DNA of 36,644 nt from Actinomycetota bacterium (GCA_016870475.1 VGBO01000021.1:1-36644), one strand, 5' to 3'; counted from the first letter of the stretch, positions 21,669 to 31,733 are shown. Notes: generated by a model from the sequence alone, not told the origin. Numbers and translations: made by a program.

Positions 21669-22397
21669 TCAGGCGATGATTCCGCCGTCGACGACGTACT
21701 CGTGCCCCGTGCAGTAGGAGCTCTCGTCCGACGCGAGGAACAGCACGAGCCGAGCAACCTCCTCCGCCGCCGCCGGTCTGCCGAGCGGGATCCGAGGGGT
21801 GAGGACCTCGCGCCAGTCGTCCCCGACCTCGGTGATCATCTCCGTGTCGATGATCCCCGGATGCACGGAGTTGACCCGCACCCCGCTCGGTGCGAGCTCG
21901 ACCGCGGCAGACTTCGACATGCCGCGGACCGCCCACTTGGACGCGCCGTAGGCGAATGCCGTCGGGGACGCGTGCATCCCCGCGATCGAGGAGATGTTCA
22001 CGATCGACCCGCCCCCGGAAGCAACCATCGCGGGCGCCGCGGCGCGCATGCCGAGGAACACGCCGAGCGCGTTGACGTCCATGATCCGGTGCCACAGATC
22101 GACCGTCGTGTCGAGCATCGGGACCACCCGGAAGATGCCCGCGTTGTTGACGAGCACGTCGAGGCGGCCGGCCTCGGCGACCACCCAGTCGACCGTCTCC
22201 CTCCAGCCCGCCTCGTCCGCCACGTCGTGGTGGCGGTAGCTCCCCCCGACCGCCGCCGCCGTCGCCGCCCCGTCCTGGTCGAGGACGTCGGTCAGGAACA
22301 CCCGGGCGCCCTCCGCGGCAAACAGCGCCGCCTCCGTCGCACCCTGCCCACGCGCGGCACCGGTGATCAGCGCAACCTTGCCATTCAGTCGTCCCAT
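21669..22397 (-). CDS. Short-chain dehydrogenase/reductase
   Basis: A classical 242-residue SDR. The cofactor motif TGAARGQG lies at 12-19, NNAG at 84-87, and the catalytic Ser137, Tyr150 and Lys154 in the YGASK motif. An Asp at the end of strand 2 (FLTDVLD) favours NAD over NADP. The closest family type is the 3-alpha-hydroxysteroid or general 3-oxoacyl reductase group, so it probably oxidises a secondary alcohol. Three Met codons lie close together (22409, 22406, 22397). 22397 is chosen because homologues open MGRLNGKVALITG and AATGAT (22405-22410) ends 7 nt upstream. Divergent from a hotdog thioesterase. Confidence 0.9.
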   Translation of the reverse strand: MGRLNGKVALITGAARGQGATEAALFAAEGARVFLTDVLDQDGAATAAAVGGSYRHHDVADEAGWRETVDWVVAEAGRLDVLVNNAGIFRVVPMLDTTVDLWHRIMDVNALGVFLGMRAAAPAMVASGGGSIVNISSIAGMHASPTAFAYGASKWAVRGMSKSAAVELAPSGVRVNSVHPGIIDTEMITEVGDDWREVLTPRIPLGRPAAAEEVARLVLFLASDESSYCTGHEYVVDGGIIA

Positions 22398-22465
22398 GCC
22401 TGGCATCATTCCACCCGCGAGGACGGATCATGCCGCCGATCGGCGCCAACCCCGAGGAGCGAACG

Positions 22466-22888: not shown

Positions 22889-23716
22889 TCAGCGGCCCTC
22901 GAAGGTGGGGGTTCGCTTCTCGACGAACGCCTTCGACGCCTCGAGGTGGTCCCGCGTCTGCCCGCAGTAGTTGTGGTGGGTGACCTCGACGTCCATGAAG
23001 TCGAACAGATCGGTGCCGGTGGCGGCCCGGTTCACGTTCTCCTTCATGTAGCGGTACGCGATCGACGGGCCGGTCGCGAGCTGCGTCGCCATCGACCGCC
23101 AACCGGCCTCGAGCTCCTCGGCGGGGAACACGGCGTTCAGCAGCCCGAGCGCCGACGCCTCGGCCGTCGTGAGCTTGTCGGAGAAGTAGTAGAGCTCCTT
23201 CGCCTTCGCCGGACCGACGATCTGGGTGAGGAACCACGCACCGCCGTAGTCGCCGGAGAACCCGACCTTGGCGAACGCCGTGGTGAGCACCGCCCCCTCG
23301 ACGGCGACCCGCAGATCGCAGGCGAGAGCGATCGAGAGACCCGCCCCCGCAGCCGGGCCGGGCAGCACGGCGATCGTCGGCTTCGGCATGCGGTAGAGCG
23401 CACCGGAGGTGGCGCGCTGGTCGAGCCGCTGCTGGTGGACGCGCTCGTCGAAGCTCGGCCCGGCCCCGTCGGCGCGGGCCGATCCCTCGGCGAACCCCTT
23501 CACGTCGCCGCCTGCGCAGAACGCGCCACCGGCACCGGTGACGACGACGCACCGGACGGCCGGGTCGGTCTCGACCCTGGCGAGGCCCGCCCCGAAGGCG
23601 GCGAGCATCGGGCCCGACAGCGCGTTGCGCCGATCCGGTCGATTGAACGTGAACAACGCGATCCCGTCCGCGATGTCGAGATGCAGGTCATCGGTACCGG
23701 TGTCGATCTTCGTCAT
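22889..23716 (-). CDS. Enoyl-CoA hydratase/isomerase (PaaG-like crotonase)
   Basis: 275 residues. The first oxyanion loop is FCAGGDVKGF (67-76) and the second PGPAAGAGLSIALACDLRVA. The acid loop reads KVGFSGDYGGAW with Asp156, matching PaaG-type 1,2-epoxyphenylacetyl-CoA isomerases and Asp-using delta-isomerases instead of the Glu of hydratases. It closely resembles the crotonase at 30891-31733, including WFLTQ(I/L)VG(P/A)AKA(K/R)ELY, so the two are probably paralogues. ATG 23716 overlaps the stop of the upstream MFS gene by 4 nt (ATGA) and also has GAGGGGGAG upstream. A TAGCGT at 23741-23746, inside the MFS end, may give it its own promoter. Confidence 0.9.
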   Translation of the reverse strand: MTKIDTGTDDLHLDIADGIALFTFNRPDRRNALSGPMLAAFGAGLARVETDPAVRCVVVTGAGGAFCAGGDVKGFAEGSARADGAGPSFDERVHQQRLDQRATSGALYRMPKPTIAVLPGPAAGAGLSIALACDLRVAVEGAVLTTAFAKVGFSGDYGGAWFLTQIVGPAKAKELYYFSDKLTTAEASALGLLNAVFPAEELEAGWRSMATQLATGPSIAYRYMKENVNRAATGTDLFDFMDVEVTHHNYCGQTRDHLEASKAFVEKRTPTFEGR

Positions 23717-24972
23717 GTCTCCCCCTCGGCGATGGCGGGCACGCTAGCCCCATGTCGTCGCAGCCGTCCCGGCTCGACACGGGCGGCGGCGACGACGGCC
23801 ACGACGCCGAGCGCGACGAGCAGCCACAGCGCCGCCTCGTACCCACCGGCGCGATCGTGCAGCACCCCCGTCACGATCGGGCCGGCGGCGACCGCCGTCG
23901 TCGTCCACGCGGCGAGCACCCCGCTGACGGTCCCGTAGTGGCGGACGCCGAACAGCTCGCCGACGAGCGTGGCTCGCAACAGGGTGCCGAGGCCGCGGGC
24001 CATGCCGTAGAGCACGACGAAGGTCCACACGAGGACCGGCGAGGTCCCCACCGCGAGGAGCGCGGAGCCGGCAGCGAGCGCGACGAACACGGCGACCGTC
24101 ACCACCGGGCGCGGCGCCCAGCGGAGCAGCGGGGTGAACAACACCCGACCGGGCACCTGCATCGCCCCGAGGACACCCGTCGCCGTGGCGGCGAGCGCCG
24201 CCGAGTAGCCGACGTCCACGAGCAGCGGGACCTGGTGGACGACGAGGGAGGACGATACGAACGCCGAGCACGCGAACGCCACGGTCAGGCTCCGGAAGGC
24301 GCGGGACCGGACGATCGCCCGCGGCCCGTCGGGCGGCGCGCCCGGCACCGTCGCAGCGAGGTCGCCATCGCCCGGATGCACCGCGTCGGTCGACGTCGGT
24401 GCCCGCCGGAGGACGACGGCGTGCAACGGCACCGTGGTCACGCCGAGCAGAACGGCGAGCGCCACGACCGCATCGCGCCACCCGAGCACCTCGATCAACC
24501 ACGTCTCGAGGGGCAGGAAGATGGTGGAGGCGAACCCTGCGACGAGGGTGACCGTGGTGAGCGCCGACCGTCGACCCGTGGAGAACCAGGCGGTGACGGT
24601 CGCGAACGCGGGCTCGTAGAGGACGGTCGCCATGACCGCGCCGAGCGCCGCCCACAGCAGGTACAGCTCGATGAGGCCGCCGACACGCGACCACAGCAGC
24701 GTGCCGGCGGTCGCGGCGACGGAACCCGCCGTCATCACGACGCGGGGACCGTGCCGGTCGAGCAGACGTCCGACGAGGACACCGGCGGCGGCCTGTGCGA
24801 GCAGGGCGACCGAGAACGCACCGGCGACCTGGGCCCTCGTCCACCCGAACTCGTCCTGCATCGGCCGGAGGAACACGGTGAACCCGTAGAAGAGCACGCC
24901 GAAGGAGATCGTCTCGGTCAACGAAAGGACCGCGACGACGGCGTGACCCCGGTGGAGGCTCGACGCGCGCAC
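23713..24972 (-). CDS. MFS transporter (monocarboxylate/oxalate-formate antiporter-like)
   Basis: A 419-residue, 12-helix membrane protein. It opens TETISFGVLFYGFTVFLRPMQDEFGWTRAQVAGAFS, the recognisable start of MCT-like bacterial MFS proteins, and has GRLLDRHGPRVVM (motif A region) and YGMARGLGTLLRATLVGELFGVRHYGTVSG. It probably takes up an organic acid. It lies directly upstream of a crotonase with a 4-nt overlap, which suggests the imported acid is degraded through that crotonase after CoA activation (inference). GTG 24972 is the assumed start, with GGAGG upstream; GAGGCT also ends 6 nt before it. Divergent from the CoA-transferase gene. Confidence 0.88.
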   Translation of the reverse strand: MRASSLHRGHAVVAVLSLTETISFGVLFYGFTVFLRPMQDEFGWTRAQVAGAFSVALLAQAAAGVLVGRLLDRHGPRVVMTAGSVAATAGTLLWSRVGGLIELYLLWAALGAVMATVLYEPAFATVTAWFSTGRRSALTTVTLVAGFASTIFLPLETWLIEVLGWRDAVVALAVLLGVTTVPLHAVVLRRAPTSTDAVHPGDGDLAATVPGAPPDGPRAIVRSRAFRSLTVAFACSAFVSSSLVVHQVPLLVDVGYSAALAATATGVLGAMQVPGRVLFTPLLRWAPRPVVTVAVFVALAAGSALLAVGTSPVLVWTFVVLYGMARGLGTLLRATLVGELFGVRHYGTVSGVLAAWTTTAVAAGPIVTGVLHDRAGGYEAALWLLVALGVVAVVAAARVEPGRLRRHGASVPAIAEGET

Positions 24973-25010: not shown

Positions 25011-26216
25011 ATGGCAGACCTGCTCTCCGGAATCCGTGTCGTCGACTTCACCCAGTACCTCGCCGGTCCGACGGTGACCCGGCTCATGGCCGAGCTCGGT
25101 GCGGACGTCGTCAAGGTCGAGCTCGCTCCCGGCGGCGACCCGGCCCGGCTGATGCCGATCCAGGTCGAGGGGCGCAGCGGGTTCTACGTGCAGCAGAACC
25201 GGGGGAAGCGCAGCCTCTGCGTCGACTGGGACGACCCACGCGGGATCGAGGTCGTCCGACGACTGCTCGCCCGGGCGGACGTCGTCGTGGAGAACTTCGG
25301 CCCGGGGGTCATGGAGAAGCGGGGCATCACCTACGACGCCGTCCGCGCCGACAACCCGGCGGTGATCATGGCGTCGATCTCCGCGTTCGGCCGCACCGGC
25401 AGCTACGCGAACCGCGTCGGCTACGACATGATCGCCCAGGCGTTCTCGGGGATGATGCACATGGCCGGGGAGCGGAACGGTCCGCCGACCTGGGTCGGGA
25501 TGGGCGTCGGCGACGTGAACGCCGGGGTCCACGCCCTCGCCGCCGTGGCGATCGCGTTGTTCCACCGCCTGCGGACCGGCGAAGGCCAGTCGATCGACAT
25601 CTCGATGGTCGACGCGCTGTTCCACATGCACGAGCTGAACGTGCACGCCGTCGGACTCACCGGCGGACGCATGCAACCCACGCGCACGGGGCGGCACTCC
25701 GGGGTCGATGCCCCCATCGGCGTGTTCAAGGGTCCGCAGGGGTGGATCGTGATGCTCGCCCTCGCCCGGCAGTGGCCGCGGGTCCCCGAGGCGATCGGAC
25801 GACCCGACCTGCTCACCGATCCGAGGTTCGGGAGCTCGCGCGAGCGGGCCCGTCACCGTGAGGAGCTCGCCGCGATCATCGAGGGCTGGCTCGCCGGGTT
25901 CGCCACGGACGAGGAGGCGCTCGCCGTGCTCGAGGCGCACCGGATCCCGTGCGCGCCCGTGCTCTCACCGGCACAGACCGTCGAGCACCCCTACTTCCGC
26001 GAGCGCGGGGCGATCCGCACCGTGCCGGACCCGGTGCTCGGGGAGATCACGATCCCGGGGTTCCCGTTCCGGTTCTCCGCCTCCCCCGACCGACCCGAGC
26101 TGGTCGCGCCGCTGCTCGGCGAGCACAACACGGCGATCCTCGAGGACTTGGGGTACGACCGGGCCGTCGTCGGTGGACTCGAGGCCGACGGGGTGCTGCG
26201 CACCGCCGACCGCTGA
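25011..26216 (+). CDS. CaiB/BaiF family CoA-transferase (type III)
   Basis: A 401-residue type III CoA-transferase. Family landmarks are the opening GIRVVDFTQYLAGPTVTRLMAELGADVVKVE, QQNRGKRSLCVD, VVVENFGPGVMEKRGI, GYDMIAQAFSGMM and the catalytic Asp168 in GMGVGDVNAG, equivalent to Asp169 of formyl-CoA transferase. It moves CoA from a donor thioester to a free carboxylate in the cytoplasm. Next to the MCT-like transporter and a PaaG-like crotonase (divergent), it is a candidate for activating the imported acid. Its stop is followed at once by a perfect hairpin shared with the convergent SDR gene. Confidence 0.93.
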   Translation: MADLLSGIRVVDFTQYLAGPTVTRLMAELGADVVKVELAPGGDPARLMPIQVEGRSGFYVQQNRGKRSLCVDWDDPRGIEVVRRLLARADVVVENFGPGVMEKRGITYDAVRADNPAVIMASISAFGRTGSYANRVGYDMIAQAFSGMMHMAGERNGPPTWVGMGVGDVNAGVHALAAVAIALFHRLRTGEGQSIDISMVDALFHMHELNVHAVGLTGGRMQPTRTGRHSGVDAPIGVFKGPQGWIVMLALARQWPRVPEAIGRPDLLTDPRFGSSRERARHREELAAIIEGWLAGFATDEEALAVLEAHRIPCAPVLSPAQTVEHPYFRERGAIRTVPDPVLGEITIPGFPFRFSASPDRPELVAPLLGEHNTAILEDLGYDRAVVGGLEADGVLRTADR

Positions 26217-26237
26217 GCGGGCCGGACTCAGGCCCGC
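26217..26237. terminator. Bidirectional GC hairpin at the 26216/26228 convergent junction
   Basis: GCGGGCC (26217-26223) and GGCCCGC (26231-26237) form a perfect 7-bp stem starting one base after the CoA-transferase stop. The 7-nt loop GGACTCA contains the stop codon of the SDR gene (26228-26230). No T-tract on either side. Confidence 0.5.
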
Positions 26238-27025
26238 CGGTGCGCCGGGCGAGGGTCGGCGAGCCTGCCGAGCGGTGACTGCGCCCGCAGCCCGCCGTCG
26301 ACAACGATCGCCTCCCCCGTCACGAACGACGACTCGTCGGACGCGAGCCACACCGCAGCTGCGGCGATCTCCTCGGGCCGACCGAGCCGGCCGAGCGCGT
26401 GCGCGGCAACGTTGCGGGCGAGCGCATCGCCCTGGGTCATCATGCGGGCGACCGGCGGGGTCTCGATGGTGCCCGGGCAGATCGCGTTCGCCCGGATCCC
26501 CGACGGTGCGTGATCGGTGGAGAGCGCCCGGGTCAGGTTGATCACCGCGGCCTTCGACGCGGCGTAGACCACCGCGCCGCCGTCGCCGTGCAGACCGGAG
26601 ATCGACGCGGTGTTGATGATTGACCCGCCGCCCGCTGCCTCCATGTGGGGCACGGCGTACTTCGCGCCGAGGAACACGGACCTCACGTTCACGGCCATCA
26701 CCGCGTCCCAGTCCTCGACGGACAACTCGACCGCGGTGCCGGGCCGCAGCGTGCCCGCGTTGTTGAACAGCACGTCGAGCCGTCCGAACGCCTCGACCGT
26801 CGCCTGCACCATCGCCGCGACCGAGGCGGCGTCCGCCACGTCGACCTCGACGGCGAGCGCGAGCCCGCCCGCGTCGCGGATGGACTGCGCGACCTCCTCG
26901 GCCTTCGCCCGACGGATGTCGGCGACGGTGACCGCCGCCCCCTCCGCCGCGAACCGGCGGGCACTCGCCGCACCGATCCCCGATGCCGCACCTGTGACGA
27001 TGCCGACCTTGTCCCCGAGCAGCAC
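26228..27025 (-). CDS. Short-chain dehydrogenase/reductase
   Basis: A classical 265-residue SDR. TGAASGIG lies at 11-18, an Asp after strand 2 (VADIRR), NNAG at 88-91, and the catalytic Ser141/143, Tyr154 and Lys158 (YAASK). It ends with a usual VTGEAIVVDGG segment plus an extra tail of about 17 residues (LGRLADPRPAHRRA) that reaches the hairpin. NAD-dependent oxidation of a hydroxyacyl or steroid-like alcohol is likely. GTG 27025 follows GGGAGGGAGG. It lies 21 nt downstream of the esterase gene and is probably co-transcribed with it. Confidence 0.9.
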   Translation of the reverse strand: MLLGDKVGIVTGAASGIGAASARRFAAEGAAVTVADIRRAKAEEVAQSIRDAGGLALAVEVDVADAASVAAMVQATVEAFGRLDVLFNNAGTLRPGTAVELSVEDWDAVMAVNVRSVFLGAKYAVPHMEAAGGGSIINTASISGLHGDGGAVVYAASKAAVINLTRALSTDHAPSGIRANAICPGTIETPPVARMMTQGDALARNVAAHALGRLGRPEEIAAAAVWLASDESSFVTGEAIVVDGGLRAQSPLGRLADPRPAHRRA

Positions 27026-27046: not shown

Positions 27047-27970
27047 TCAGGCGGTGCCGAACACCTCACGCAACCGCCGTGCCGTGCGAGCGACCGCGGT
27101 CGCACCGTCGGGGATGGCGGCACCCATACCGAAGAACCCGTGGATCTGCGCGGCGTAGTGGTCGTGAACCACGTCGACGCCGTTGCGGCGCAGTCGCTCG
27201 GCGTAGGCGCTCCCGTGGTCTCGGAGCGGGTCGAACCCGGCGGTGATCACCGTCGCGGGCGGCACGGTGGCGAGCACCTCGTCGGCCGCGTGGATCGGCG
27301 ACACGGTCGGATCGGTCCACGACGCACCGGTCGCACCGAGGTAGTGCTCTCGGAACCACGTCATCGACGCCGTGTGGAGGAGGAAGCCGTGCGCGTTCTC
27401 GACCGAACTCGGGTAGGGCGACCAGTCCATGTCGACGACGGGGTAGACGAGCACCTGATGGGCGAGATCCGTCGGCATCGCCTGCGCCACGATCGCGGCG
27501 AGATGGCCACCGGCCGAGTCGCCACCGACGGCGACCCGGCCCAGGTCGATGCCGAGCGACGCGGCGTTGGCGATCGTCCAACGGGTCGCGGCGAGCGCGT
27601 CGTCGGAGGCTGCGGGGTACCGGTGCTCGGGGGCGAGGCGGTAGTCCACGCTCACGACGACGCAACCGGCGAGGTGCGCGAGCTCACGGGTCAACGGCTC
27701 GGACTGCGTCGCCGACCCGATCACCCAGCCGCCGCCGTGGATCCACACGAGCGCCGGGAACGGGCCCGTCCCCTCGGGCACGAACACCTTCACCGGCACC
27801 CCGTCGGCGTCGAGATCGCGGACCTCGGCCACGTCGGTCAACGGGAGGTTCGGGTTGCGCAGCGCCGCGTACGCCGCCCGCGCGTTCTCCGGCGTCGTGT
27901 CCTCGAACGCCGGGATCCCGAAGCGGACCAGCGCATCGAGCACCGCCTTCGCTGCACCGTCGAGTTCCAT
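27047..27970 (-). CDS. Alpha/beta hydrolase, hormone-sensitive-lipase-type esterase
   Basis: 307 residues. The oxyanion motif HGGGW lies at 78-82 and the nucleophile elbow GDSAGG at 150-155 with Ser152. Asp247 in GFDPLRD and His277 in QIHGFF complete the triad; YRLAPEHRYPA is the usual HSL linker motif. It hydrolyses short- to medium-chain esters or lactones. ATG 27970 follows GGGGAGGG. TAGCGT (27997-28002), a probable -10, coincides with the stop codon of the upstream thioesterase gene, so a promoter may be embedded in the end of the preceding cassette. Confidence 0.92.
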   Translation of the reverse strand: MELDGAAKAVLDALVRFGIPAFEDTTPENARAAYAALRNPNLPLTDVAEVRDLDADGVPVKVFVPEGTGPFPALVWIHGGGWVIGSATQSEPLTRELAHLAGCVVVSVDYRLAPEHRYPAASDDALAATRWTIANAASLGIDLGRVAVGGDSAGGHLAAIVAQAMPTDLAHQVLVYPVVDMDWSPYPSSVENAHGFLLHTASMTWFREHYLGATGASWTDPTVSPIHAADEVLATVPPATVITAGFDPLRDHGSAYAERLRRNGVDVVHDHYAAQIHGFFGMGAAIPDGATAVARTARRLREVFGTA

Positions 27971-27996: not shown

Positions 27997-28002
27997 ACGC
28001 TA
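27997..28002 (-). promoter_or_regulatory. -10-like TAGCGT overlapping the upstream stop codon
   Basis: TAGCGT on the minus strand contains the TAG stop of the thioesterase gene (28000-28002). It lies 27 nt before ATG 27970, leaving a short leader with GGGGAGGG. Confidence 0.4.
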
Positions 28003-28410
28003 CCGCGGCGACGCGCCCGGCGGTGCGGGGATCACCGCGAACGACCCGGTCGCCGCGGCGACGAGGGCACCACTCGATTCGGTGACCTTCGCCTCGAGGT
28101 GGACCACCCGGCGGCCGGCGCTCATCACCGACGCCTCGGCGTGCAGCACGGTGCCGGGGAACGCCGCCCGCAGGAACCGCATCTGGGTCTCGATCGTGGC
28201 GCACCGATGGTCGTCGTCGAGGATGCTCACCGTCGCCGCACCCATCGCGGTGTCGACCATCGCGAAGACCGCCGCACCGTGCGCCACGGCGTTCGGGTTG
28301 AGATGCGGATCGCCGACCGTCATCGTCGCGGTGGCCCGCCCCTCACCACGGTCGAGCTCAAACCCGAGGAAGCTGCGGAGCGGGAAGTTCGGCGGCGGGG
28401 GCGTGGTCAT
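28000..28410 (-). CDS. PaaI-like hotdog thioesterase (fourth gene of the overlap cassette)
   Basis: 136 residues, one hotdog domain. NPNAVAHGAAVFAMVDTAMGAAT carries the HG of the central helix, and TIETQMRFLRAAFPGTVLHAEASV gives the core strands. It likely hydrolyses an acyl-CoA or acts as a specificity domain within the cassette. Its ATG overlaps the TGA of the preceding thioesterase gene by 4 nt (ATGA) and also has AGGAGGT 7 nt upstream, so it can be initiated both by coupling and independently. Confidence 0.88.
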   Translation of the reverse strand: MTTPPPPNFPLRSFLGFELDRGEGRATATMTVGDPHLNPNAVAHGAAVFAMVDTAMGAATVSILDDDHRCATIETQMRFLRAAFPGTVLHAEASVMSAGRRVVHLEAKVTESSGALVAAATGSFAVIPAPPGASPR

Positions 28411-29270
28411 CGGACCTCCTGGTCGGTGGGGTCGACGGCGAGCCGGTACGGACTCGCCGTCTGGGACTGCAGGACGTGACCGAACACGCCGTGGTCGTCG
28501 GCCAGCGTGCCACCGCACCATCCGACCGCCGCGCCGTTGATGCGGGCGGCAGCGTCGACGCACACCCAGTCGCCCTCGGGCAGACGGTGCAGCTGCAGGG
28601 TGACGTCGGGGTTGATCATCGCCACGCCGCCCGGCCCCCAGTCCCAGCCGACGGCGGCGACGAGGTCCGAGAGGGTCGCGACCGTCTGCAACGGGGTGAG
28701 CGGCGTTCCGGCGACCACGGGGCGTCGAACCCGAGCCCACAGCACGGCGGGTCCAGGGGTCTCGGTGTCGCCGTGCACGGACCGCAACTCGACGGCGTCG
28801 CAGTTGAACCCGGGTCGCGGGTAGTCGAACCCGCCGGCCGCGGGGTCGACCGCCTCGAGTGGCATCGGCGGCGGTGTCGCAGATCGACCGGCGAACGTCG
28901 TGGTCGCATCACCTCGCTGCGGGGCGACCCAGGTCGACGTCGCCCGCACGAGCGTCGTGTCCCCGTCGGACACCGTGGCGTCGACGACGGCGAGGCGGCG
29001 ACCGCCGCGGGCGACCCGGGAGCGGACCGTCACCGGTTCGAGCCCGACCGGCCGCCACAGCTCGACCGTCAGCCGGGCGAGCTGCAGGCCGGCCGGCGCG
29101 ACCTGTTCGACCGCCCAGCCGACGAGACCGCAGACGGCTCCCCCGTGCAGCATCCCGGCGTCCCAGGGACCCCGTGCGAGCGGCGTGGCCGCCACGCCGA
29201 TACCGCCGTCCGCCGTGTCGGCCGCAGCGGCCCGGAGGAACAGCGCCTCGGGGAGCTCGTCGTCGGTCAC
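28407..29270 (-). CDS. TesB-like double-hotdog acyl-CoA thioesterase
   Basis: A 287-residue thioesterase-family protein with two hotdog halves. The first includes GMLHGGAVCGLVGWAVEQ and LARLTVELWRPVGLEPVTVRSRV. The second includes TVATLSDLVAAVGWDWGPGGVAMINPDVTLQLHRLP and ends with FGHVLQSQTASPY. This matches the TesB/4HBT_3-type proteins common in mycobacteria. It hydrolyses medium or bulky acyl-CoAs. The GTG start overlaps the stop of the DUF35 gene by 4 nt (GTGA). Confidence 0.87.
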   Translation of the reverse strand: MTDDELPEALFLRAAAADTADGGIGVAATPLARGPWDAGMLHGGAVCGLVGWAVEQVAPAGLQLARLTVELWRPVGLEPVTVRSRVARGGRRLAVVDATVSDGDTTLVRATSTWVAPQRGDATTTFAGRSATPPPMPLEAVDPAAGGFDYPRPGFNCDAVELRSVHGDTETPGPAVLWARVRRPVVAGTPLTPLQTVATLSDLVAAVGWDWGPGGVAMINPDVTLQLHRLPEGDWVCVDAAARINGAAVGWCGGTLADDHGVFGHVLQSQTASPYRLAVDPTDQEVR

Positions 29271-29674
29271 GCCGGGGTGAACCGGGGAAGCGCCGGACCC
29301 TCTCCCGTGTCGTCGAAGACGACCCGGACCGCTTGGCCGATGTGCACCGTGGCCGGGTCGGCGCCGACGATGTTCGTCATCACCCGAGGACCCTCGGCGA
29401 GCTCCACGTAGGCCATGACGTAGGGACCGGCGTCGCGGTACGCCCCCTGGCCCTTCCGCGTCACCGTGTAACTGTAGACGGTCCCCGCGCCCGACGCCTC
29501 GTTCCAGTGCACCGCCGTCGATCCGCACTCGGGACAGAACATCCGCGGGTACCAGATCACGAAACCGCACGCGTCGCAGCACGGCAGCAGGAGGCGACCC
29601 TCGGCGGTCGCCTCCCAGAACGGCGCCGTCTCGAGCGTGGGCCGGGGCACCGGCGTGGGCAGTCCGGAGCTCAT
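29267..29674 (-). CDS. DUF35 Zn-ribbon/OB-fold acyl-CoA-associated protein
   Basis: 135 residues. The N-terminal rubredoxin-like zinc ribbon has Cys33-x2-Cys36 and Cys47-x2-Cys50 (CDACG and FCPECG). The OB fold follows: GTVYSYTVTRKG, GPYVMAYVELAEGPRVMTNIVG and HIGQAVRVVFDD. DUF35 proteins pair with thiolases, hydroxymethylglutaryl-CoA synthase or Ltp2-type aldolases and help hold the acyl-CoA. Its partner is almost certainly the thiolase-like protein immediately upstream, whose stop it overlaps by 4 nt (ATGA). Confidence 0.92.
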   Translation of the reverse strand: MSSGLPTPVPRPTLETAPFWEATAEGRLLLPCCDACGFVIWYPRMFCPECGSTAVHWNEASGAGTVYSYTVTRKGQGAYRDAGPYVMAYVELAEGPRVMTNIVGADPATVHIGQAVRVVFDDTGEGPALPRFTPA

Positions 29675-30840
29675 TCGTCCCTACCGAGGATCAGCGTCGC
29701 CGAACCCATCCGGGTCGACAGCGCGCCGCCGGTCCCGTGGGCGAGCGCCAGGCGACAGTCGGGCACCTGGACGGCCGGATGCGCCTCACCGCGGAGCTGC
29801 CGCACCGCTTCGATGACCTTCGTCATGCCGCCCCGGTTGGCCGGGTGGTTGTTGCACAGGCCACCGCCGTCGGTGTTGAACGGCAGACGCCCGTGGGGTG
29901 CGAGGAGCCCGCCGTCGGCGACGAACGCACCGCCGCGACCCCGTTCGCAGAAGCCGAGGTCCTCGAGCGTGATCAGCACCGTGATCGTGAAACTGTCGTA
30001 GATCGACGCGTAGTCGATGTCCGCGGGCGTGCACCCGGCCTCGGCGAACGCCCGCGGCCCCGACCACACGGCACCCGTGTAGGTGAGATCGATGCGCCCG
30101 TTCCCGGTGTTCTTCGTCGCCTCACCGTGGCCGAGGATCCGTGCGACAGGGCGGGTGAGGGTCCGTGCGACCTCCGGGGACACGACGACGACCGCGCCGC
30201 CGCCGTCGGTGATCACGCAGCAGTCGAGACGGTGCAGCGGGTCGCTGACCATCGGCGACGCGAGCACCTCCTCGACGGTGACGACGTCGCGGAGGAACGC
30301 GTGCGGGTTGTGGCTCGCGTGCTGCGACGCCGCGACCTTGATCTCGGCGAGCTGCGCCGACGTCGTACCGAACTCGTACATGTGCCGCTGCGCGGCGAGC
30401 GCGTAGTTCCCCGGCACGGTCGGACCCCAGAGCGACTCGAAGGCGAACTCCGGCGCCGACCCGAACGCCCCACTCCCACCGGGCTGCGCACCGCCGGTGC
30501 GCGGCTTGCCGGCGAGCGTGACGAGCGCGACCGAGCACTTGCCCGCGGCGATCGCCGCGGCGGCGTGACCGATGTGGATCAGGTACGACGAGCCACCGGT
30601 CTCGGTCGAGTCGAGGTACCGGAGGTCGCGCAGGCCGAGGTACTCCGCCATCGACAGCGCACCGAACCCGGGGGCGTCACCGGCGCAGAAATACCCGTCG
30701 ACGTCTCCGAGGGTCAGCCCGGCATCCGCGAGCGCCCCGAGCGCCACCTCGGCGTGGATCTGGGCGACCGTCCGGTCGGGGATCTCCCGCAGCGGGTGCT
30801 CGTAGACCCCCGCGATGCATGCTCGGCCCCTGATGCTCAC
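29671..30840 (-). CDS. Thiolase-like protein without the nucleophilic cysteine
   Basis: A 389-residue thiolase-fold protein. The place where thiolases carry the acyl-accepting Cys reads DSTETGGSSYL (residues 77-87) with no Cys; the nearest are Cys52 and Cys102. The C-terminal catalytic blocks are also altered: GLCNNHPANRGGMTK in place of GHPxGATG, and ALAHGTGGAL where the second Cys is expected. Loss of the Cys together with an adjacent DUF35 partner is the established pattern of Ltp2/ChsH2-type retro-aldolases of steroid side-chain breakdown. A C-C lyase acting on an acyl-CoA is therefore more likely than a thiolase. GTG 30840 is chosen because TAGGGT ends 7 nt before it; GTG 30849 overlaps that element. 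Confidence 0.85.
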   Translation of the reverse strand: MSIRGRACIAGVYEHPLREIPDRTVAQIHAEVALGALADAGLTLGDVDGYFCAGDAPGFGALSMAEYLGLRDLRYLDSTETGGSSYLIHIGHAAAAIAAGKCSVALVTLAGKPRTGGAQPGGSGAFGSAPEFAFESLWGPTVPGNYALAAQRHMYEFGTTSAQLAEIKVAASQHASHNPHAFLRDVVTVEEVLASPMVSDPLHRLDCCVITDGGGAVVVVSPEVARTLTRPVARILGHGEATKNTGNGRIDLTYTGAVWSGPRAFAEAGCTPADIDYASIYDSFTITVLITLEDLGFCERGRGGAFVADGGLLAPHGRLPFNTDGGGLCNNHPANRGGMTKVIEAVRQLRGEAHPAVQVPDCRLALAHGTGGALSTRMGSATLILGRDE

Positions 30841-30847
30841 GGGCGGC

Positions 30848-30853
30848 ACCCTA
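30848..30853 (-). promoter_or_regulatory. Leaderless promoter element TAGGGT of the thiolase-like cassette
   Basis: TAGGGT on the minus strand ends 7 nt before GTG 30840, in the 50-nt gap after the crotonase gene. No ribosome binding site. It would head the four-gene cassette. Confidence 0.5.
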
Positions 30854-30890: not shown

Positions 30891-31733
30891 TCAGCGTCCG
30901 ACGAAGTTGGGCGGGCGCTTCTCGACGAACGCCTTCGCCGCCTCACGGTGGTCGTCGGTCGCGCCGGTGCGGACCATTGCCGTCGCCTCGCCGTCGAGAC
31001 AGGTGCGGAGGTCGGCGCGCAGCGCCCGGTCCAGGTTCTCCTTCATGTACCGGTACGCGACGGTCGGGCCCTGCGCGAACTGCTGCGCCCAGGTCGCGGT
31101 CTCGGCGGGGAGGTCCTCGTCGTCGACGACGCGGTTGAGGATGCCGAGCCGTTCGGCGGTCGCCGTGTCGATCCGGTCGGACGTGAGGTAGAGCTCGCGT
31201 GCCTTCGCCGCACCGACGAGTTGCGTGAGGAACCAACTGCCGCCGAAGTCGCCCGAGAACCCGACCTTCGCGAACGCCGTGGTGAGCACCGCCGACCGTG
31301 CGGCGATGCGGAGGTCGCAGGCGAGAGCGATCGACAGACCGGCACCGGCCGCCGCCCCGGGCAACGACGCGATGGTCACCTTCGGGAACTCGTACAACGC
31401 CGCCGAGATCGAGTGCTGGCGGCGGCGGAGGTCGTCGATGCGCGCCTCCTCGCTCATCGGCGGACGGCCCGACGCGGCGAGCGCCTCGGCGCGCGCCGAC
31501 TGCGCCTTCACGTCGCCACCGGCGCAGAACGCTCCGCCGGCCCCGGTCACGACCAGCGCCCCGACGCTGTCGTCCTCGCGGAGTTCGGCGAGGACACGGC
31601 CGAGCCCGTCGAAGATCGCAGGGTGCAACGCGTTGCGCGCCTCGGGACGGTTGAGCGTGAGCGTCGCGACCCGATCGGTGACCGAGGCGAGCAGGTAGTC
31701 CGTTCCGGTTTCGAGCGTCCGCGTGGCTCCCAT
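30891..31733 (-). CDS. Enoyl-CoA hydratase/isomerase (PaaG-like crotonase)
   Basis: 280 residues, a close relative of the crotonase at 22889-23716. It shares FCAGGDVK, PGAAAGAGLSIALACDLRIAARSAVLTTAFAKVGFSGDFGGSW with Asp162 in the PaaG Asp position, and YRYMKENLDRAL. It probably isomerises or hydrates an enoyl- or epoxy-CoA. The start ATG 31733 lies 7 nt after TAGTCT (31741-31746) with no ribosome binding site. It sits between the peroxiredoxin gene (27 nt upstream) and the thiolase-like cassette, all on the minus strand. Confidence 0.9.
   Translation of the reverse strand: MGATRTLETGTDYLLASVTDRVATLTLNRPEARNALHPAIFDGLGRVLAELREDDSVGALVVTGAGGAFCAGGDVKAQSARAEALAASGRPPMSEEARIDDLRRRQHSISAALYEFPKVTIASLPGAAAGAGLSIALACDLRIAARSAVLTTAFAKVGFSGDFGGSWFLTQLVGAAKARELYLTSDRIDTATAERLGILNRVVDDEDLPAETATWAQQFAQGPTVAYRYMKENLDRALRADLRTCLDGEATAMVRTGATDDHREAAKAFVEKRPPNFVGR

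Follow-up and report, generated by a model that had tools for sequence, protein, structure and literature searches.

The locus considered here raises the question of what reaction is catalysed by a thiolase-like protein that has lost the thiolase cysteines, and which of the three genes packed behind it belong to its function. It is located in the window, i.e., the whole analysed stretch of 36,644 nucleotides from an Actinomycetota bacterium (GCA_016870475.1 VGBO01000021.1:1-36644). The four genes are intact, lie on the minus strand and show a good coding signal; their products match, in order, the Pfam models Thiolase_C_1, zf-ChsH2 with OB_ChsH2_C, 4HBT_3/4HBT_3C and 4HBT (Table 1). For the thiolase-like gene, the GTG start at 30840 is preferred over a start at 30849, since position 2 of the family model corresponds to residue 5 of the longer reading, and the starts of orthologues agree. 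The resulting numbering of 389 residues is used throughout.

Table 1. Features of the thiolase-like/DUF35 locus and its surroundings in the window
Feature	Position	Strand	Remarks
Thiolase-like (SCP2-type fold) subunit, NF006010/PRK08142	29671..30840	-	389 aa; Gly83, Y281-D-S283-F, N331-H332-P
DUF35 partner, zinc ribbon C-x2-C-x10-C-x2-C and OB fold	29267..29674	-	135 aa
TesB-type double-hotdog acyl-CoA thioesterase, lineage-specific neighbour	28407..29270	-	287 aa
PaaI-type single hotdog thioesterase, lineage-specific neighbour	28000..28410	-	136 aa; His44-Gly, Asp53
Crotonase-superfamily enoyl-CoA hydratase/isomerase, upstream of the pair	30891..31733	-	order kept in sister genus
Hormone-sensitive-lipase-type alpha/beta hydrolase, downstream	27047..27970	-	missing from sister-genus locus
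SDR oxidoreductase, downstream	26228..27025	-	missing from sister-genus locus
CaiB-type family III CoA-transferase, divergent	25011..26216	+	missing from sister-genus locus
MFS transporter and second crotonase, 4-nt overlap	22889..24972	-	adjoin the pair in sister genus

The junctions described in the initial annotation (ATGA at 29671-29674, GTGA at 29267-29270 and ATGA at 28407-28410) were all confirmed. Three consecutive overlaps show tight packing, which suggests an operon whose genes are probably coupled in translation. The fixed stoichiometry deduced from them is unsupported, as such overlaps are common in this genome: exact 4-base overlaps were found in 11 of 63 same-strand neighbours in the sampled stretches and in 6 of 22 in the window.

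The thiolase-like protein falls into the family NF006010 (PRK08142, thiolase domain-containing protein) with 666.5 bits against a curated cut-off of 462. In the alignment, the position of the nucleophilic Cys is taken by Gly83 (GG for AC), YDSF (Tyr281, Ser283) stands where SCP2-type thiolases have HDCF, with Ser283 at the second Cys position, and the thiolase GHP motif reads NHP with His332 retained. The loss of both cysteines was thus recognised correctly at the outset. Glycine stands at the Cys position in all aligned relatives; an orthologue with Cys there, named beforehand as contrary evidence, did not occur. YDSF and NHP are kept together in 80 of 80 loci from named genomes, and Ser283 is invariant in 92/92 sequences, the ten reference sequences having C, H, A or N at this place.

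Known types of active site are not reproduced by this set of residues. SCP2-type thiolases carry the Cys of AC(A/S)xG and the Cys/His of HDCF, and the window protein has Cys at neither place. TcLtp2 has YDHF with Tyr344 and CtSal has YDCY with Gln352, the tyrosine of YDxF being essential in Sal and TcLtp2 (PMC12329534). Of the Ltp2 catalytic residues, the tyrosine of this motif is present as Tyr281, the histidine is replaced by Ser283 (92/92 sequences), and the column of the second tyrosine, Tyr344, which is also that of Sal Gln352, holds His332 within NHPANRGG. Likewise, the essential Cys and Gln352 of the Sal type are substituted by Ser283 and His332. By alignment, the YDSF/NHP clade is neither Ltp2 nor Sal and has a third active-site arrangement.

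The second gene encodes a ChsH2-type DUF35 protein with a C4 zinc site (zf-ChsH2, 52.5 bits; OB_ChsH2_C, 84.1 bits; both over the cut-offs). A DUF35 gene directly follows the thiolase-like gene in 73 of the 80 named-genome loci. Among the remaining seven, two loci break off no more than about 220 bases from the thiolase-like gene, and in some of the others a DUF35 gene may have escaped gene calling. The pair was present in all nine class-sample genomes, own genome included, in which an orthologue exceeds the cut-off of the family model. The clade is spread among Actinomycetota, Pseudomonadota and haloarchaeal plasmids. An orthologue with 75% identity to the query lies on a contig titled as a Bifidobacterium breve MAG (L050), whose bin or label is probably wrong. 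In Pseudonocardia and two Actinomadura species (L080, L096, L106), two thiolase-like-DUF35 pairs lie almost back to back, flanking crotonase and/or CoA-transferase genes.

The predicted model of the thiolase-like protein (pLDDT 88.5, pTM 0.91) is closest to 4u4e, Sal-Shy (CtSal) and Ltp2-ChsH2 (TcLtp2), which occupy Foldseek ranks 1-4 and give VIA Z of 50.5-50.9. The values for thiolases and other relatives range over 34-48, with TbSLP, BbsB and SCP2-type thiolases at 41-48 and classical thiolases at about 35. The tree separates the Cys-thiolases (100/98) from an aldolase side with Ltp2, Sal and the YDSF clade, and all four groups, Ltp2-like proteins among them, form separate supported clades; it comprises 27 sequences and several long branches, and its deep order is uncertain. 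Membership in Ltp2 was rejected, as both motif and tree differ. Of the proposed Ltp2-type retro-aldolase with DUF35, the loss of Cys, the partner, the aldolase-like fold and the tree stand, and the Ltp2 active site does not. The protein fits the broader kind, a thiolase-superfamily aldolase with DUF35, in its Cys loss, YDxF tyrosine, partner and aldolase-side position.

The aldolase reading is thus supported by phylogeny, predicted fold, Cys loss and the DUF35 partner. Judging from alignments and models, the thiolase-like and DUF35 proteins probably constitute a retro-aldolase complex acting on a beta-hydroxyacyl-CoA, with the hotdogs recruited in one lineage. We infer the reaction, its direction and its substrate as follows. 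A beta-hydroxyacyl-CoA, probably branched or otherwise resistant to beta-oxidation, would be split, yielding a short acyl-CoA together with an aldehyde or ketone. Tyr281 would remove the proton from the beta-hydroxyl, breakage of the C-C bond would leave an acyl-CoA enolate, and the enolate would be protonated by His332, the retained thiolase GHP histidine, with the assistance of Ser283. No acyl-enzyme would be formed, since Cys is replaced by Gly. By analogy with the solved complexes, DUF35 would shape the substrate pocket. In the window, the MFS protein might take up a carboxylate, to which the CaiB-type transferase would attach CoA; hydration by crotonase and then cleavage would follow. The carbonyl product would be the substrate of SDR, and CoA would be released by the hotdogs, probably so as to recover it from products or stalled intermediates.

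Several observations weigh against the retro-aldolase. SDRs of the 3-hydroxyacyl-CoA dehydrogenase type and MaoC near many relatives also fit a beta-keto substrate, the retained GHP histidine is a thiolase feature, and the tree is small and has long branches. Furthermore, replacement of Cys304 by Ser abolishes the activity of CtSal (PMC12329534), so Ser283 cannot act as Cys304 does in Sal, and its role must differ.

The reaction could also run in the C-C-forming direction, with the window protein as an aldol or Claisen-type condensing enzyme that forms no acyl-enzyme, as in PhlABC or the HMG-CoA synthase complex. The fold and DUF35 are common to the window pair, PhlABC, the archaeal thiolase/HMG-CoA synthase complex and BbsAB, and aldol reactions are reversible. 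However, the surroundings are catabolic (crotonases and CoA-transferase here, acyl-CoA ligase and acyl-CoA dehydrogenase in relatives), no PhlA- or HMG-CoA-synthase-like gene adjoins the pair, and the window protein groups with aldolases in the tree, which leaves the condensing direction improbable. Equally unlikely is an unconventional thiolase, in which Tyr281 and His332 would activate CoA directly and a beta-ketoacyl-CoA would be cleaved without Cys acyl-enzyme. Such an enzyme would agree with the kept GHP histidine and with the Bradyrhizobium locus, where the genes after the pair, MaoC and an SDR of the 3-hydroxyacyl-CoA dehydrogenase type, stand in the order that would lead up to a thiolase. 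Against this reading, both Cys positions are lost, HDxF has become YDxF with the aldolase tyrosine, the clade sits with aldolases, and the own genome has true Cys-thiolases with AC, HDCF and GHP (L006, L007).

The preferred retro-aldolase can be viewed against the other thiolase-like genes of this 2.45 Mb genome. The window query found eight of them (L001-L008), seven complete. They cover five active-site types, from Cys-thiolase through Ltp2-like (L004, YENF and AECY), Sal-like (L003, YDCY and GQP) and SLP-like (L005, YDCF) to YDSF with NHP, the last type being represented by the window gene and L002. In the neighbourhoods read for the paralogues (L002/L024, L003/L134, L004/L135 and L005/L136), each is adjoined by a DUF35 gene of its own. 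Behind the second YDSF pair (L024:8061-11137, G000:C2; L045:3064-6165) lie a PHP-type gene and two small ORFs. Pfam identifies the first ORF as a FAS1-type dehydratase; the second has no Pfam match and looks MaoC-like by eye. This arrangement is kept in the sister genus and is a candidate hydratase-aldolase unit.

Genes of acyl-CoA catabolism were recognisable within 6 kb in at least 50 of the 80 named-genome loci, representative clusters having been checked by Pfam. Among the neighbours were SDR (21 loci), CoA-transferase (21), acyl-CoA ligase (15), crotonase (12), acyl-CoA dehydrogenase (10) and MaoC (9). The gene sets are too varied for a substrate to be assigned from them, and this approach was abandoned; the YDSF/NHP proteins may be a multi-use family.

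The third gene encodes a TesB-type thioesterase, as indicated by its double-hotdog fold and by 4HBT_3/4HBT_3C matches over the cut-off. The best Foldseek match of its model (mean pLDDT 78) is E. coli TesB (1c8u, E 5.8e-15), mycobacterial TesB structures also match, and Asp202, Asn220 and Gln268 sit at the TesB triad positions in an alignment made by hand; a sequence search of solved structures gave no match. The fourth protein passed the general hotdog model TIGR00369 alone, scoring 52.2 bits against 118.9 for the PaaI equivalog TIGR02286.

The conservation of the four-gene order assumed earlier does not hold. The two hotdogs are kept with the pair in none of the 80 named loci and in no genome of the family with readable neighbours, and an unconserved order had been named beforehand as evidence against the proposal. 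In four sister-genus genomes of the same family (L039, L129-L131), the locus reads crotonase, MFS, DUF35, thiolase-like, crotonase, peroxiredoxin and Cys/Met enzyme. Between DUF35 and MFS, the interval is empty or contains one 75-residue ORF, and hotdogs are absent; at the same place the window carries TesB, PaaI, alpha/beta hydrolase, SDR and CoA-transferase. The sister-genus TesB orthologues (45-51% identity) are found elsewhere, adjoining an SDR and near FolE-like genes (L019-L022), and the best PaaI relative (58-59%) is at another place in one sister genome. A fifth family genome (G005) has the pair without hotdogs on a short contig (L132).

A foreign origin of the extra genes was rejected, the GC and GC3 of the hotdogs and their neighbours matching those of the surrounding genes. 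A mobile TesB-PaaI-hydrolase-SDR unit was rejected as well, since within the family the nearest relatives of TesB and PaaI occupy unrelated places. A further SDR of the window (21669-22409) shares 53-54% identity with the SDR that adjoins the sister-genus TesB orthologue; it and the TesB gene are both near the aldolase locus, yet 6 kb apart.

A four-protein complex of a lyase and two dedicated hotdogs trapping or hydrolysing its products, as suggested in the initial annotation, would suit the three overlaps in a row and the PaaI-type gene found within 6 kb in 4 of the 80 named loci and near the pair on a Rhodococcus oxybenzonivorans plasmid, but it is very improbable and was rejected as a conserved unit on the sister-genus synteny and the 80 named loci, none of which has a TesB-type protein, and such overlaps are in any case frequent in this genome. 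The best reading is that the hotdogs are separate acyl-CoA thioesterases recruited into the operon in one lineage and are not conserved subunits. Since the pair occurs in all nine orthologue-bearing class-sample genomes and the hotdogs are absent from the sister-genus locus, the thiolase-like protein with DUF35 is the ancestral unit, to which the hotdogs were added locally and recently.

Thiolase or acetyl-CoA acetyltransferase is the common annotation of YDSF/NHP proteins, although catalysis through the thiolase acyl-enzyme is closed to them. Should they be aldolases, hydration in many catabolic clusters would be followed by a retro-aldol cut and not by oxidation and thiolysis, and these clusters would have to be reinterpreted. 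Tyr281, Ser283 and His332, all invariant, are direct mutational targets. The chances are about even that the clade represents a third catalytic design (Tyr-Ser-His vs. Tyr-His-Tyr and Tyr-Cys-Gln), serving outside steroid metabolism as a C-C lyase of general use for beta-hydroxyacyl-CoAs in Actinomycetota, Pseudomonadota and on haloarchaeal plasmids. The part worth keeping is a widely distributed YDSF/NHP subclass of putative thiolase-fold aldolases.

The nearest solved structure by sequence is 4u4e, a putative thiolase of Sphaerobacter thermophilus from structural genomics. It has the same YDSF and HP site at about 46-49% identity and stands outside the PRK08142-type clade. No paper on 4u4e was found in the open literature searched, nor was any description or assay of the YDSF clade or PRK08142 family. 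Sal-Shy, the bile-acid aldolase of Comamonas testosteroni (PDB 9myr), shares with the window pair the fold (Z 50.9, 35% identity), Gly at the Cys position, the YDxx tyrosine and a DUF35 partner. Unlike the window protein with YDSF and His332, Sal has YDCY and Gln352, and its DUF35 is fused to MaoC and has a C3H1 zinc site, whereas that of the window is a stand-alone C4 zinc ribbon. Ltp2-ChsH2, the steroid aldolase of Thermomonospora curvata (PDB 6ok1), is similar in fold (Z 50.5, 35% identity), Cys loss, YDxF tyrosine and C4 DUF35 partner. It differs in having YDHF and Tyr344 in place of YDSF and NHP and belongs to a separate clade, and a steroid cluster is absent around the window pair.

In ibuprofen breakdown, a non-steroid pathway, the distantly related Cys-less pair ipfDE serves a retro-aldol step, as supported genetically (PMC9195938), and sets a precedent. 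IpfD-IpfE of Sphingopyxis granuli RW412 is likewise a Cys-less thiolase-like protein with a DUF35-type partner, IpfD being 36% identical to the window protein. However, IpfD has YDAF and an Ltp2-like Tyr, and IpfE (L137:6170-6568, on plasmid pRW412a) is without the zinc-ligand cysteines of other DUF35 partners. A second cluster of pRW412a (L137:13673-18858) contains alpha/beta hydrolase, CaiB, crotonase, DUF35 and an Ltp2-like protein, and its content resembles the window locus. Atf1-ChsH4 of the Mycolicibacterium neoaurum HBC operon, known genetically, is also an aldolase whose DUF35 protein stands alone and is encoded in the same operon (PMC10398937). Atf1 is Sal1-like, with 56% to Sal1 (PMC10398937), and the Sal-like locus of the own genome (C1, L134) is its better counterpart.
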